A program made the translations under genes and the position numbers. Below the pieces are notes generated by a model. It saw only the letters and a program-made list of their open reading frames with translations. It did not search any database and had not been told where the DNA came from. Source: Sedimenticola sp. (GTDB taxonomy: Bacteria > Pseudomonadota > Gammaproteobacteria > Chromatiales > Chromatiaceae). Taken from it: DNA of 32,217 nucleotides. Positions 1-32,217 of the stretch are shown here, in pieces. Each line of letters starts with the position of its first letter. Within the stretch, counting starts at the first letter, position 1. The DNA is taken from positions 1 to 32,217 of the forward strand of contig JALSTP010000199.1 in the NCBI GenBank assembly GCA_026983675.1, given 5' to 3'.

Positions 1-3000
1 TCAAGAGCGATACGCCGACCCAGAACTACGGGAGCGACGGCAGCGTCAAGGTATTCAAAGGTTTTTCCTCGGAGCAGCGCGCGTTGTTCAAGTTCGATAT
101 TCAGAACAGCGGTATCCCGGCGGACGTCCAGATTATCTATGCGGCGGCAAAGATCTTCGTTCTGGACTCGAATGCGTCTACGGATGTGACGGTGCATCGC
201 GTCACCGCCGACTGGAGTGAATCGACGGTCGATTGGGACGCTGTCCAGGCGAGCCATGAGGGTTCGGCCATTGCCACCATTCCGCGAGGCACCCCCGCCG
301 GCCACTATGTGTCGCTCAATATCGCGCCCCTGGTGCAAGGCTGGCTGAACGGAAGCATCCCCAATCAAGGGATTATGCTCAAGAGCGGGTGGGGCCTGGA
401 TTCGAGCAAGTTCAGCAGCAAGGAGGACAGCGATCCGGCGCAGCACCCCTATCTCGAGGTCAAGGTGCTCGATGGGACGCTGTCGAACCGGGCAGACATC
501 CGTGTCACCGGCACGTTGGCCAACGGCATCAGCCGAAGCCGCGTTCGCCTGGGGGTTGCGTTGTACCAAACGCCCGCAAACGTCGTCAGCCAGCAGCCGG
601 GTGGCGCGGAGGGCCGGGACACCTTCATCCTAAGGAGCAAAACGGACCGGAACTATGGCGCGCACGGCGAACTGTGGGTGACGCGCTGGGGGGGGGATGA
701 GGGCCGGGCATTGCTCCGGTTCAGGACCGATTCGATCCCGCCCGGCGCGCACGTGGTCAACGCAAGGCTTCAACTCTATCAGGACACCCCCAGTTCGGAT
801 GGCGGACCCGTCAGTGTACACCGCGTCACGTCCGACTGGGCGGAGGGCGGCAAGACGGGGCAGACGGGACCGGGGGCGACCTGGAGCGCACGCGATACCG
901 GCGTCGACTGGCACACGCCCGGCGGTGATTTCGATCCCCAAGCCGTTGCGACGACGGACATCCCGATGGGGGTTAAAGGGTGGTTCGCCTGGGATGTCAC
1001 ATCGTTGGTCCAGGGATGGGTGGACGGCGCCTATGCCAATCAAGGCCTGATGTTGTTCCCGGAGACGGCCGCAACGGACGTCTATTTCAGCAGCAGCGAT
1101 GCCTCGGATGCCAGTCTGCATCCAAAGCTCACGATCGAGTATACCTGCGAATGCGGCGTCACCTGCCAGCCGCCCCAGGGTTCGGGGAACCTGCTCTTGG
1201 TGGTGGGCGATGCCGCTACTCCCGATCCGGCCGATGTGGAGAAGAAGGCGCTTTTCGAATCCTGGGGCTATGCGGTGACCTTCTTCGACGACGGCAATGA
1301 CCGGTCGGCCTTCGATACCGCACTGGCAAACAGCGATCTGGCCTACGTCTCGGAAACGGCAGTCAGTTGGACGCTGGGCAACAAGCTGACCTCGACCGAG
1401 AAAGGGGTGGTGAATGAAGAGGGCAGGGAGAACGCCAAGCTGGGGATCTCCAGCAGTCATGGCGCCACCGTCGGGAGGCAACTGGAGGTGACCGACAACA
1501 GTCACTACATTACCGCGCTCTTTCCCGTTGGCGTCATCCCCATATACACCGCCGATATGGAGGGTCTGCAGGCGGCAGGCACATTGGCGGCCGATCTGCA
1601 GACGCTGGGTGAGTTTGCAGGTTCTCCCGGGCTGGCGGTGATCGAGAAGGGGGGCGTCCTGGCCGATGGCTCCAGCGTCGCCGCCGGCCGGCGCGTGATG
1701 CTTCCCATCGGTCGCCACGGCAAGTTCAACTGGAAGTATCTCAACAACAATGGCTATCTAATAGTACAGCGGGCCATCGAGTGGGCGGCCACCGCGCCCG
1801 CCGCGCCACCGCCCCCCATGAGGGTCTACTGGACCGATGATCAGGCGGGCAAGATCCAGCGCGCCGATCCCGACGGCGGCAATCTGGAGGATGTCTTGAC
1901 AGGACTCGATGCCCCCACCGGACTGGCCATCGACACCGCCAACGGCAAGATCTACTGGGCGAATGGTCATTCGGAGATACGCCGCGCCAATCTCGACGGC
2001 GCCGGGGCCGAAACGGTGGTGACCGAGCCGGCGTCGAGCATTGTGTTCGATGTGAAGGTGGATACCGCCAACGGCAAGGTGTATTGGACCAACAACAGCA
2101 CGCGCAGCATCCGCCGCGCGAACCTGGACGGGAGCCTCGTGGAGACGGTCTATGCGGCGGCTTCAGGGCGGCCAGCCTACATCTCGCTCGATACCCGGGC
2201 GGGACAGGTCTACTACACCGATTTCGATGGGGGCACGGTGAGCCGCGTCAATATGGACGGCACGGGCCAGGTCGATTTGGTCACCGGCCTTGGCAATCCC
2301 GTGGGGAACGGACTGGATGTGACCCACGGCAAGATCTACTGGAGCGATGGCTCGGGTGGAGACAGTGTGCGGCGCGCCGGTCTGGATGGCAGCGGGGTCG
2401 AGGTAGTGGCCAGCGGGATCGGCGCGCCGCAGGACGTGGCGGTGGATCCCCAAAACGCCCGTTTCTATTGGGCCGGTGCCTGGGATCAGAATGTTCGTGG
2501 CGCCGATCTGGATGGCGCCAATGCCGCGGACGTGGCGGGCGGCCTGACCCGGCCGCGTGGCGTCGTGCTCGTGGAGGCGTCCCGCGTCCCGCCAACGGGC
2601 GGTGGGGGCGGCGGAGGCGGTGGCGGCAGCGGGGGCTGTAATGGAACCTTCCGCGACGAGTTTAATACCGTATCCTATTCCAACAATGATGGGACCCTCG
2701 TTTGGGCAGGGGACTGGAAGGAGATCAACGAGTCCGACGGCGCCGGGGCCGGCGATGAACGGGTGCGGAATGACAATGGTTCGTCCCGGTTGCGGGTGCA
2801 GGACAATGACGGCGGCGGCGAGGGCGTGGAACGGGAGGCAGATCTGTCCGGGGCGGCCGCCGCAACCCTGAGTTTTCGCTACCGGCGCTCCGGCCTGGAC
2901 AACGCGAATGACTATGTGAAGGTCGAGATATCCGCCAACGGCGCTGCCGGTCCGTGGACAGAGATCGCACGCTTTCAGGGGAAGGCCACGGATTACGCCT

Positions 3001-3134
3001 ACCGCGCCTTCAGTCAGGACATCAGCGGCTATATCTCGTCGAAGACCCGTATCCGTTTACTGACCTCGCCGAAGATGGGCGGCCGCGACGCGGTGATGTT
3101 CGATGATGTTCAGATCCAATGCAGTCCATATTAA
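1..3134 (+). CDS. Large mosaic secreted/surface protein, 5' truncated (DNRLRE, Rossmann-like, YWTD propeller)
   Basis: The frame is open from base 3, so the true start lies outside the window; the TTG at 84 is internal. Modules in order: DNRLRE-type jelly roll (about bases 3-470, with the NYGSDGSVKVF motif near its start); a second DNRLRE module (600-1150, NYGAHGELWV, VTSLVQGWVDG); a Rossmann/flavodoxin-like segment (1190-1800, LLLVVGDAATPD); six YWTD-type propeller repeats (1820-2570: VYWTDD, IYWANG, VYWTNN, VYYTDF, IYWSDG, FYWAGA); a poly-Gly linker (2595-2636); and a C-terminal beta-sandwich-like domain. Such modules are typical of extracellular carbohydrate- or protein-binding proteins. 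It may be a functional counterpart of the large MshQ protein of MSHA loci, inferred only from position next to msh genes. A run of nine G lies at 688-696. The TAA stop (3132-3134) is inside the terminal repeat of the adjacent MITE-like element. Confidence 0.8.
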   Translation, partial: KSDTPTQNYGSDGSVKVFKGFSSEQRALFKFDIQNSGIPADVQIIYAAAKIFVLDSNASTDVTVHRVTADWSESTVDWDAVQASHEGSAIATIPRGTPAGHYVSLNIAPLVQGWLNGSIPNQGIMLKSGWGLDSSKFSSKEDSDPAQHPYLEVKVLDGTLSNRADIRVTGTLANGISRSRVRLGVALYQTPANVVSQQPGGAEGRDTFILRSKTDRNYGAHGELWVTRWGGDEGRALLRFRTDSIPPGAHVVNARLQLYQDTPSSDGGPVSVHRVTSDWAEGGKTGQTGPGATWSARDTGVDWHTPGGDFDPQAVATTDIPMGVKGWFAWDVTSLVQGWVDGAYANQGLMLFPETAATDVYFSSSDASDASLHPKLTIEYTCECGVTCQPPQGSGNLLLVVGDAATPDPADVEKKALFESWGYAVTFFDDGNDRSAFDTALANSDLAYVSETAVSWTLGNKLTSTEKGVVNEEGRENAKLGISSSHGATVGRQLEVTDNSHYITALFPVGVIPIYTADMEGLQAAGTLAADLQTLGEFAGSPGLAVIEKGGVLADGSSVAAGRRVMLPIGRHGKFNWKYLNNNGYLIVQRAIEWAATAPAAPPPPMRVYWTDDQAGKIQRADPDGGNLEDVLTGLDAPTGLAIDTANGKIYWANGHSEIRRANLDGAGAETVVTEPASSIVFDVKVDTANGKVYWTNNSTRSIRRANLDGSLVETVYAAASGRPAYISLDTRAGQVYYTDFDGGTVSRVNMDGTGQVDLVTGLGNPVGNGLDVTHGKIYWSDGSGGDSVRRAGLDGSGVEVVASGIGAPQDVAVDPQNARFYWAGAWDQNVRGADLDGANAADVAGGLTRPRGVVLVEASRVPPTGGGGGGGGGGSGGCNGTFRDEFNTVSYSNNDGTLVWAGDWKEINESDGAGAGDERVRNDNGSSRLRVQDNDGGGEGVEREADLSGAAAATLSFRYRRSGLDNANDYVKVEISANGAAGPWTEIARFQGKATDYAYRAFSQDISGYISSKTRIRLLTSPKMGGRDAVMFDDVQIQCSPY

Positions 3135-3461
3135 CCCGGCAACAATATATATCGTATTCAGCCGTGGCGTGCCGGTTCGCAGCAAGGCGGCCCATCGCCG
3201 CTGTAGCCACCCTACAGCAAGATGGGGCAACGCAGTCTGCGGTCCGGCACGCCGCGGCCTGTCTTTGAATATCATAGGGTTAGGGGCTTCAGGCAGGCGC
3301 CGGACCTGCGTTCCAGTGCGCTGGACAGGATGTCCAAGTGTCGCGAGTGCATGGATGCACTGGAGCGACCTTGGCAAGGGAATGACCCTTGCCTGCGCAC
3401 TGGGCCTTGTTCCGGCGCCTGCCTGAAGCCCTGAATGCAATATATATTGTTGCCGGGTTAA
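3131..3461. mobile_element. MITE-like element, copy 1 (complete, modules A and B)
   Basis: Non-coding element of 331 bp with near-perfect terminal inverted repeats beginning TTAACCCGGCAACAATATAT; TA flanks both ends (3129-3130 and 3462-3463). It contains two nested fold-back modules. Module A has a 15-bp stem, 3161-3175 with 3244-3258 (one G-T), enclosing a small hairpin CTGTAG/CTACAG (3201-3217). Module B has a perfect 20-bp stem, 3284-3303 with 3412-3431, enclosing hairpins 3346-3361 and 3373-3393. Short reading frames across it are by-products of the repeats. Shortened relatives lie at 10011-10171 and 31854-32093. Confidence 0.85.
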
Positions 3462-3619
3462 TAGCATGTAGGCAACGTGTTGATCCGATGGATGAAGATA
3501 ACCGGGGCCGTTCCGGGCGCTTGCCGGACGCCACGCTAGCGGTTGCTGGAAGCCACTCCCTGTGAGTCCCCATCATGTCCTCTTCTCCCGCCGGGGTAAG
3601 GTATCTATGTGAAATTGGG

Positions 3620-8551: not shown

Positions 8552-9999
8552 AGCGCGGATCATCCACTGTGTTGGCGGTCTTGCGCCATGCCATCATCGC
8601 CGCCTTGGTGGTGCTGGCCGCGACGGCGGACGCCGGGCAGCGCATCACCATGTCCTTTCAGGACATGCCCTTCAATGAAGTGATGGAAATGTTGTCCCGG
8701 CAGGAGCGGGTCAATATCCTCGTATCGGAGGGTCTCGATGCGAAGGTGTCGTTCAATCTCTACGACGTGGATCTGGACGAGGCGATCCATTCCATCGCCG
8801 AGGCCGCGGGATTCGCGGTGGAGAAAAGAAAAGGCAGCTACTACATCGTCGACAGGGATGAGGCGGGCAAATATGCAGTGGGTGACCTGACCCGGCTCAA
8901 GACATTCAAGGTGCAGTATACGGATCCGGTCCTGGTGGAGAAGATCCTGAAAAAGCACCTGTCCAAATATGGCAAGATCACCACACTGCCAAAACGCAAT
9001 ATTATCGCCGTCGAAGATACGCCGGAGTTTCTAAAACGCATCGGGACCTTGCTGAACGAGCTGGACCGCGAGCCGAAACAGATCCTGATCGAGGCCAAGA
9101 TACTGGAGATCACCCTCAACGACGCGGAGTCGTTCGGCATCGATTGGTCGAAGCTGTTCACGAGTGGACGCACGTCGGGGAGCGTCGGCATTCAGGGTTT
9201 GGCCAGTCCGAAGTCGCCGGGTTTGTTTTTCAAGTTGATGTCGCCCAGTGTCGAACTGGCCCTGGATGCCCTGAAGACGCGGGGGCGGCTGCGTACTCTG
9301 TCGACGCCCAAGCTTCTGGCGATGGAGAACGAGGAGGCCTCGACAGTGGTGGGCGACCGGATCGGATTCAAGGTCACGACCACTATCAACCAGGTCACTA
9401 CCGAGTCCATCAAGTTCCTGGAGTCAGGCGTCATTCTGCGGGTCACGCCGTCGGTGGACCGGCAGGGGCGCATCTTGCTGGATGTGCATCCGGAGGTCAG
9501 TACGGCATCGGTCTCGGATGACGGCATTCCCTCGAAACGGACCACCCAGGTCTCCACGATGATGCTGGTGCCCGACGGTCAGACGGTATTCATCGGTGGC
9601 CTCATCAAGCACATCGTCAACGAGAGCCGTGAGGGCGTGCCGGTCCTGGGCGATCTTCCAGGTGTGGGTCTGTTGTTCAGAAACAACTCGAAAAACGTGG
9701 TCAATACCGAAACCGTGGTCCTGATTACACCCAAGGTCATCAAACATCCCGAAAAGGCGATTGCGCTGGAAAGGAGAAGAAAATATACGCGCGTGGAGCA
9801 ACTGATGCGCGGCGATGCCGTGCGCGCCGGCCGAAAGATGGACGAGCTCATGGGGGAGGGGGGTGTGCCGACGGATGACCGAGACGGTTGGTTGAGTCTG
9901 GACGGGGGCAACGGCGGAACCCCACGTCCCGTGCCGGGACACCCAAAACACGATGGCCCGAAACAAAAGGATTTATCGATCCAGGACCTGGATCTGTAG
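8548..9999 (+). CDS. mshL: MSHA pilus secretin MshL
   Basis: 483 residues. A Sec signal peptide (residues 1-30) is followed by an STN/N0 domain (ITMSFQDMPFNEVMEMLSRQ), an N1-like domain, and the secretin core with the hallmark VPVLGDLPGVGLLFR near residue 370. A hydrophilic tail of about 80 residues follows the beta-barrel region. It forms the outer-membrane channel for the pilus. Last gene of the msh set here: the ATPases, platform protein and pilins expected elsewhere in an MSHA locus are not downstream. The terminal CTG TAG and the following bases repeat a 13-base stretch of module A of the MITE-like repeat, so the 3' end of the gene seems to have been reshaped by the repeat. Confidence 0.9.
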   Translation: MKRGSSTVLAVLRHAIIAALVVLAATADAGQRITMSFQDMPFNEVMEMLSRQERVNILVSEGLDAKVSFNLYDVDLDEAIHSIAEAAGFAVEKRKGSYYIVDRDEAGKYAVGDLTRLKTFKVQYTDPVLVEKILKKHLSKYGKITTLPKRNIIAVEDTPEFLKRIGTLLNELDREPKQILIEAKILEITLNDAESFGIDWSKLFTSGRTSGSVGIQGLASPKSPGLFFKLMSPSVELALDALKTRGRLRTLSTPKLLAMENEEASTVVGDRIGFKVTTTINQVTTESIKFLESGVILRVTPSVDRQGRILLDVHPEVSTASVSDDGIPSKRTTQVSTMMLVPDGQTVFIGGLIKHIVNESREGVPVLGDLPGVGLLFRNNSKNVVNTETVVLITPKVIKHPEKAIALERRRKYTRVEQLMRGDAVRAGRKMDELMGEGGVPTDDRDGWLSLDGGNGGTPRPVPGHPKHDGPKQKDLSIQDLDL

Positions 10000-10010
10000 C
10001 CACCCTGCAC

Positions 10011-10171
10011 CTGAAGCCCCTAACCCTATGATATTCAAAGACAGGCCGTGGCGTGCGGTCCGCAGACTGCGTTGCCCCATCTTGCTGTAGGGTGGCTACA
10101 GCGGCGATCGGCCGCCTTGCTGCGAACCGGCACGCCACGGCTGAATACGATGTATATTGTTGCCGGGTTAA
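10011..10171. mobile_element. MITE-like element, copy 2 (module A only, one terminus missing)
   Basis: About 160 bp matching the reverse complement of bases 3131-3291 of copy 1. It has the right terminal repeat (GTTGCCGGGTTAA) and the whole module A fold-back, with stem arms near 10048 and 10127 and the small hairpin CTGTAGGGTGGCTACAG inside. Module B and the other terminus are absent. The left junction carries an extra piece of the small hairpin (CTGTAGCCACCCT at 9994-10006). It lies between the convergent mshL and tRNA/rpoD transcripts, where its strong hairpin could stop transcription from either side. Confidence 0.8.
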
Positions 10172-31853: not shown

Positions 31854-32093
31854 TTAACCCGGCAACAATATATATCGCATTCAGGGCTTCAGGCAGGTGC
31901 CGGAACAAGGCGCAGTGCGCAGGCAAGGGTCATTCCCTTGCCAAGGTCGCTCCAGTGCATCCATGCACTCGCGGCACTTGAACATCCTGTCCAGCGCGCT
32001 GGAACGCAGGCCCGGCGCCTGCCTGAAGTCCCTAACCCTATGATATTCAAAGACAGGCCACGGCTGAATACGATATAGATTGTTGCCGGGTTA
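31854..32093. mobile_element. MITE-like element, copy 3 (module B only)
   Basis: 240 bp with both termini: left TTAACCCGGCAACAATATAT, right GTTGCCGGGTTA. Module B is complete (outer arms near 31884 and 32012, with inner hairpins matching copy 1). Module A is reduced to GGCCACGGC (about 32057-32065): the whole fold-back of copy 1 has been removed while its outer flanks are kept. The right TTAA is interrupted after TTA by the start of another element. Confidence 0.84.
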
Positions 32094-32115
32094 TTAACCC
32101 GGCAATAAAATATTG
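32094..32115. repeat. Terminal inverted repeat of the adjacent transposable element
   Basis: TTAACCCGGCAATAAAATAT begins immediately after the TTA that ends copy 3. The first 12 bases are identical to the MITE termini, and the next 8 are similar. It ends just before the stop codon of the partial reading frame at 32116, as expected of an insertion sequence end. Confidence 0.68.
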
Positions 32116-32217
32116 CTACGCTGCATAGCGAATCGGCTCATGCTCGAAGTAACTTTTCACCCTTGCCGGAGACTTCTGCAGTTTGCGCAGATGGCTCACC
32201 GCCGCTTTCTTCAAGGC
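32116..32217 (-). CDS. C-terminal fragment of a probable transposase (cut by the window edge)
   Basis: The last 33 codons plus a TAG stop of a minus-strand gene that continues beyond the window: ALKKAAVSHLRKLQ... ending FEHEPIRYAA. The fragment is too short to name a family. Transposase is inferred because the stop codon lies directly inside a terminal inverted repeat starting at 32094. TA or TTAA target duplication could fit IS630-like or IS1380-like elements, but this is not established. Confidence 0.55.
   Translation of the reverse strand, partial: ALKKAAVSHLRKLQKSPARVKSYFEHEPIRYAA

Follow-up and report, generated by a model that had tools for sequence, protein, structure and literature searches.

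Convergent copies of a structured motif inside probable IS630-type MITEs of Sedimenticola, and in other Gammaproteobacteria, with signs of selection as a single strand

Several hundred repeat ends in a draft genome of Sedimenticola sp. belong to small mobile elements whose interior holds two copies of one structured motif, facing each other between terminal inverted repeats (TIRs). We think it probable that these repeats are IS630-type MITEs in which the convergent motifs are under selection in single-stranded form and act in cis, as read-through RNA, for the spread of the element. The analysis started from three copies in the window, which is the whole 32,217-nt stretch of DNA under study, one of the 232 contigs of the 3.08 Mb draft.

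The original prediction had placed three copies here and had named the modules in each; all three were confirmed, copy 3 reaching to 32094. Copy 1 is bounded by TA target duplications that can be read from the sequence (3129-3130 on the left, 3462-3463 on the right). It runs from a left TIR (3131-3160, + strand) that begins TTAACCCGGCAACAATATATATCG, through module A (3161-3258, sense on the + strand; covariance model R1, 107.3 bits), with its P1 stem, CAAGGC internal loop, P2, P3 and AACGCAG, and a linker of 25-26 nt that homologues also have (3259-3283), to module B (3284-3431, sense on the - strand; model R2, 79.2 bits) and a right TIR (3432-3461, - strand). Both modules assigned to copy 1 are present, but a 51-bp insertion that splits module B (3319-3369, + strand) had been overlooked; it is missing from the 280-bp forms of the element in this and other genomes. 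The TTAA end of copy 1 provides, at 3132-3134, the TAA stop of a long upstream ORF (84-3134), and the ORF ends nearest other elements are likewise overlapped by about 4 bp.

Copy 2 (10011-10171, - strand) consists of one TIR, module A (10045-10141, sense on the - strand; R1, 96.8 bits) and the linker, and lacks module B and the other terminus. On its left flank, positions 9990-10011 read CTGTAGCCACCCTGCA, a piece of the apical hairpin of module A that holds the TAG stop of the upstream ORF; this suggests a second, rearranged element. Copy 3 (31854-32094, - strand) belongs to a 241-bp subfamily with both TIRs, the linker and module B (31884-32031, sense on the + strand; R2, 70.3 bits; 51-bp unit at about 31946-31996) and without module A, whose loss has left GGCCACGGC behind, as had been claimed. 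Adjoining copy 3 is the TTAACCCGGCAATAAAATATTGC end of another element, together with the final 33 codons of a transposase (32094-32217, - strand), which the contig end cuts and whose full-length homologues are IS630-type (DDE_3).

Across the genome, the terminal repeat TTAACCCGGCAACAATATA has 392 matches at up to 3 mismatches, compared with 0 for a reversed control pattern, and copy 1 is matched by 142 pieces at E<0.001. From the 392 ends we infer a family of about 200 copies, or one per 16 kb. Many contigs of the draft break off within an element. Ninety TIR-to-TIR elements, drawn from about half of the genome, were parsed, and 67 of them have TA at both flanks. Their lengths fall into classes of 331, 280, 241, 208, 190, 158 and 36 bp, among others. 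These classes confirm the module boundaries, so that the division into A and B holds consistently genome-wide.

Inside the 331-bp form are module A, the linker, and a module B that includes the 51-bp unit, and the 280-bp form differs from it in lacking this unit. Among 241-bp copies, which have no module A, one identical junction was found in 18 of 18 parsed, copy 3 included. At the base of the A hairpin, the two arms, GCCGTGGC and GCCGCGGC, double as near-direct repeats, and the junction falls between them. Its position fits slippage, as proposed earlier for copy 3, followed by spread of the subfamily. Because it is shared, however, it points to one deletion propagated by transposition (or a strongly recurrent one) and not to an event private to copy 3, which is a member of an established subfamily. 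The three copies had been described as deletion states of one element; the A-less form is real, but most of the forms are subfamilies that have propagated, and copy 2 is no more than a truncated element.

The 36-bp form consists of a back-to-back pair of TIRs. TA-flanked elements of this kind occur in several genomes (L077:2449-2484, L086:11402-11437, L208, L236 and L256) and may be either minimal transposons or products of precise interior loss. Derivatives without A or without B are likewise found at TA-flanked sites. Thus, mobility does not strictly depend on the motif, which would give an advantage at most. Other rearrangements were also seen. One 280-type element (L262:1019-1455) has a segment of about 157 bp added between its TIR and module A, and this segment holds a further hairpin repeat, GCGGATGCAGGAATCC...GGATTCCCGCC. 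Compared with other copies, the B core is flipped inside its P1 stem in L094:4285-4563, L209:1492-1685 and L309, and in L296 the A core is inverted in the same way besides the B core. Such inversions are the expected product of recombination between arms.

The 51-bp stretch of module B is probably a later insertion. Its hairpins, GGACAGGATGTCC and GTGCATGGATGCAC, have CsrA-like GGA loops on the + strand of copy 1 (units at 3319-3369 and 31946-31996 of the window), and csrA is present in the source genome. In other genomes (L167, L168, L171 and L173), strings related to the unit are also found away from the MITE. A TwoAYGGAY or CsrA-sponge role was rejected as the core function, since the conserved 280-bp form does not have the unit; GGA hairpins are also not enriched outside the MITE, an apparent excess having stemmed from the MITE itself.

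The link to IS630 comes from the ends. The end that copy 3 abuts reads TTAACCCGGCAATAA. Full-length relatives of the adjoining transposase are IS630-type with DDE_3 matches (E down to 9e-40) and have TA-TTAACCCGGC ends, and TA-TTAACCCGGC(A) ends stand beside DDE_3 transposases in the relatives L189, L191 and L198. Identity between MITE and IS630 ends is limited to about the first 10-13 bp. The elements themselves, at 36-331 bp, are below 600 bp and too short for a transposase gene. No intact DDE_3 gene or autonomous IS630 copy was found in this draft assembly, where only contig-end fragments are present, probably owing to collapsed repeats. The motif is absent from the relatives' transposon copies; the one match lies about 1 kb from the transposase match in L194. 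With a TA duplication, TIRs in common with an IS630 transposon and no transposase of their own, the repeats are, as far as such features can tell, non-autonomous IS630-type MITEs with a TA target, presumably mobilised in trans via their TTAACCCGGCAAC ends.

The conserved part of the elements is their interior. The motif has a predicted layout of ~97 nt, with a P1 stem of ~20 bp, an internal loop CAAGGC/AACGC, P2, a loop GC.../CAAG, and P3 closed by a 5-nt loop. Folding z-scores are -12.6 and -17.9 as RNA and -15.8 as DNA. When 15 divergent elements were aligned, 60 of 98 predicted pairs were found altered on both sides with pairing kept. By module, both-side changes affect 24 of the 34 pairs of each, a level reached in 0 of 500 shuffles, and slid registers fall far below the observed covariation in both. 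The stems therefore do not decay without compensation, and the compensatory changes among copies that had been proposed as a check are present. Unpaired positions vary less than stems (mean entropy 0.41 versus 0.75 in A, and 0.58 versus 0.68, a slight difference, in B). The motif thus combines covariation with conserved unpaired nucleotides, two marks of a structured RNA. Searches of Rfam at gathering and relaxed thresholds returned no credible match to the repeats. GCAAGGC resembles kink-turn and twister-sister sequences, a likeness to which Rfam gives no support. Integron attC sites were rejected on inspection, the relative positions of AAC and GTT being wrong.

The two modules had been described as independent fold-backs, and this did not hold up. 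Module A and the reverse complement of module B align without gaps across the first 75 positions, and of the 25 columns conserved in both, 16 agree in register, as against at most 6 at other shifts within 12. The models R1 (built on A) and R2 (built on B) each detect the other module, on its sense strand. A simple pairwise comparison of primary sequence, A against the reverse complement of B, was not significant, so the homology is visible at the level of profile and register only. Judged at that level, module B is an inverted copy of the ~97-nt motif of module A.

Mismatches in the stems carry information about the strand on which the motif is kept. A double-stranded function, or mere symmetry of the arms, predicts equal numbers of G·T and A·C mismatches. 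In 34 non-redundant elements, G·T and A·C numbered 56 and 9 in module A, 14 and 53 in module B, and 27 and 30 in the TIR stem; read on its own sense strand, module B has 53 G·T and 14 A·C. Counted as parsimony events on a tree, the corresponding numbers are 27 and 9 for A, 12 and 30 for B, and 16 and 22 for the TIR, with Fisher p = 9e-5 for A versus B and p = 0.42 for the TIR. The opposite wobble bias in A and B implies that each module is selected as a single strand, on opposite strands, and it disfavours a cruciform or other double-stranded DNA function. The suggestion that the element is folded as RNA or single-stranded DNA (ssDNA), beyond simply having transposase ends, gains support from this strand-specific constraint.

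A larger set of 51 motifs, mostly from other families, has 101 G·T and 9 A·C, but carries less independent weight than the 34-element test because the motifs were aligned to the structure model and the better-scoring strand was taken, which biases them toward standard pairs. AAC, together with the GG and C of CAAGGC, is kept in 50-51 of the 51. P3 retains an internal T·C mismatch in 33 of the 51 motifs, across many families, which suggests a recognised non-canonical feature.

Within the Sedimenticola genome the picture is different. Deviations of resident copies from the consensus pairs are unbiased, with G·T and A·C at 26 and 25 in module A, 31 and 37 in the P1 of module B, and 28 and 29 in the TIRs; thus, copies decay neutrally once inserted. 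From the two comparisons together we infer that selection acts on the propagation of spreading lineages, not on host use of single sites. Judged by these counts, the motif is kept in spreading lineages as a strand-specific single-stranded structure, whether RNA or ssDNA.

The motif is widely distributed. Model R1 (A) detects it in 72 of 210 genomes, and 28 of 61 genera, of the taxonomic family. Model R2 (B), at E at most 1e-5, detects it in 96 of 369 genomes of the class and in 76 of 272 sampled gammaproteobacterial genera, and in 62 of 398 genomes in a draw from the phylum with other classes included; the models were quickly calibrated and the E-values are rough, the best being 1e-14 to 1e-20. 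Elements of the 280-bp form are also present beyond this genome, both in further genera of its family and in MAGs named as Thiohalobacter, Sedimenticola, Chromatiales and Thiotrichales, and 37 of 46 elements of this class in other genomes have TA on the flanks. An exact 20-base TIR match was found in MAGs labelled Bacteroidales and Desulfobacteraceae (L230 and L233), reflecting either horizontal transfer or binning error.

Motif pairs in other lineages are convergent in 20 of 20 cases and lie between TIRs that differ by lineage. A spacer of 7-10 nt, often CCTTCGG or CCGAAGG, usually links the two motifs, and the enclosing inverted repeats are 31-34 bp long (for example, TAGTGCTCCTTCAAGG, TAGTGGGCCAAG, TAGTGTCCCTTAACAG and GAGCCTGTTGATGATC). 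One core between differing ends means that the ends have been exchanged or have diverged beyond recognition; by this comparison, the core is older than any single set of ends. Searches of plasmids and phages gave few matches. Unannotated, related two-arm elements with TAGGGYCTGTTGACGTTT ends are present on plasmids of Azotobacter chroococcum, Halomonas sp. PA16-9 and Pseudomonas aeruginosa PA83.

In the explanation that we favour, the ends would be recognised in trans by an IS630-type transposase and the element inserted at TA. With the arms inverted, any strand that is transcribed or single-stranded would bear exactly one sense motif, in the 5'-proximal arm. The active form is presumably RNA from read-through transcription, and its sense arm would most likely bind a putative, widely conserved host factor of the transcription, RNA-decay or translation machinery. 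Such binding may make an insertion tolerated or keep the source copy active, a benefit in cis to the spread of the element. A further proposal, which we hold only tentatively, is that the pair represents an ancient selfish RNA or ssDNA core, found in Gammaproteobacteria and beyond, that changes its transposon ends and spreads via its CAAGGC/AACGC loops.

The motif might instead work as folded ssDNA, arising in lagging-strand replication, conjugation or natural transformation and aiding excision, protection or integration; the convergent pair would then guarantee one functional hairpin on either strand. One sense motif per strand and strand-specific pairing would suit ssDNA equally, G·T is the mildest mismatch in DNA too, the DNA fold is strong (z -15.8), and selection is visible on spreading lineages only. 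However, IS630/Tc1-type transposases work on double-stranded ends, the TIR stem has no such bias, and the G·T excess (101 versus 9) is of a size that better suits RNA wobble, so that we consider ssDNA rather unlikely. RNA is moderately preferred in view of the size of this G·U-type excess and of how common read-through transcription is, a preference drawn from sequence comparison.

The two remaining explanations dispense with selection on a folded strand or place it with the host. If these were ordinary MITE hairpins, arm symmetry would result from hairpin-templated repair or gene conversion between arms. MITEs are indeed palindromic, the core flips within stems (L094, L296, L309) are arm recombination, and changes from one Watson-Crick pair to another are frequent in the TIR stem as well (76 events). 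Equal G·T and A·C would then be expected in the modules, as in the TIRs, and there would be no reason for loops (CAAGGC, AACGC, CAAG) to be conserved across families or for the P3 mismatch to persist, which makes this explanation very improbable. Even less credible is domestication, in which regulatory RNAs (terminators, mRNA stabilisers or protein-binding sites) are retained site by site for the host. It would accord with the known effects of ERIC, BOX and NEMIS elements on transcripts (PMC2229807, PMC3049150). Most elements adjoin or separate genes, and single-module elements in tandem gene gaps of the Sedimenticola genome have the motif in sense with transcription in 14 of 19 cases and not in 5, a weak, non-significant excess (p = 0.06). 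However, convergent, divergent and tandem gaps are used without preference, pairs in resident copies decay neutrally, and the hundreds of copies include many that are truncated or flipped.

MITEs are usually regarded as empty shells that need their ends alone. In motif-bearing elements, contrary to this view, it is the interior that is conserved and the ends that vary. The results point to a strand-specific single-stranded structure selected for spreading and not for host benefit, found across many environmental genera as well as some that are culturable, and suggest that 'empty' mobile elements carry an undescribed working part. A testable question follows: of what use is structured RNA or ssDNA to a transposon without genes?

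Several known repeats share some of these properties. RUP of Streptococcus pneumoniae is a high-copy MITE derived from IS630-Spn1 that has a TA target and is mobilised in trans (PMC2229807). It is alike in being IS630-linked, abundant and inserted at TA, but it is a simple palindrome of 107 bp with no convergent structured pair, in another phylum and of unrelated sequence. BOX is a modular, hairpin-rich, size-variable MITE-like repeat with a predicted RNA fold (PMC3049150); it consists of tandem boxB units between boxA and boxC, in streptococci, whereas the Sedimenticola family is an inverted pair of one motif, and the pairs, convergent in every case, do not follow the boxA-(boxB)n-boxC order. 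CIR (CerM-associated intergenic repeats) of Caulobacter are predicted RNAs with two arms and a linker (PMC2229807). They are defined by GANTC in the apical loop, which the conserved columns of our motif lack, and have neither a TIR pair nor CAAGGC/AACGC loops. ERIC, YPAL and Correia/NEMIS are short mobile palindromes that fold stably as RNA (PMC2229807), but differ in their single stem-loop architecture, sequences and hosts. MRSC-65-2, a covarying structured motif in dozens of copies per genome, is suspected to be selfish, with its RNA or DNA form left open (PMC11109978). By its description there, it consists of one long stem and bears a UYCCGG repeat; the consensus of our motif has no such invariant repeat, and the motif has two internal loops and occurs in convergent, TIR-bounded pairs. 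No description of the motif was found, by sequence or topic, in Rfam or the open-licence literature, 250 further candidates of PMC11109978 lying outside the comparison, and earlier discovery under another name is possible. MITEs, IS630-linked MITEs such as RUP, modular repeats such as BOX and structured mobile-repeat candidates such as MRSC-65-2 are already known, and there is a real chance that the core described here merits a class of its own.
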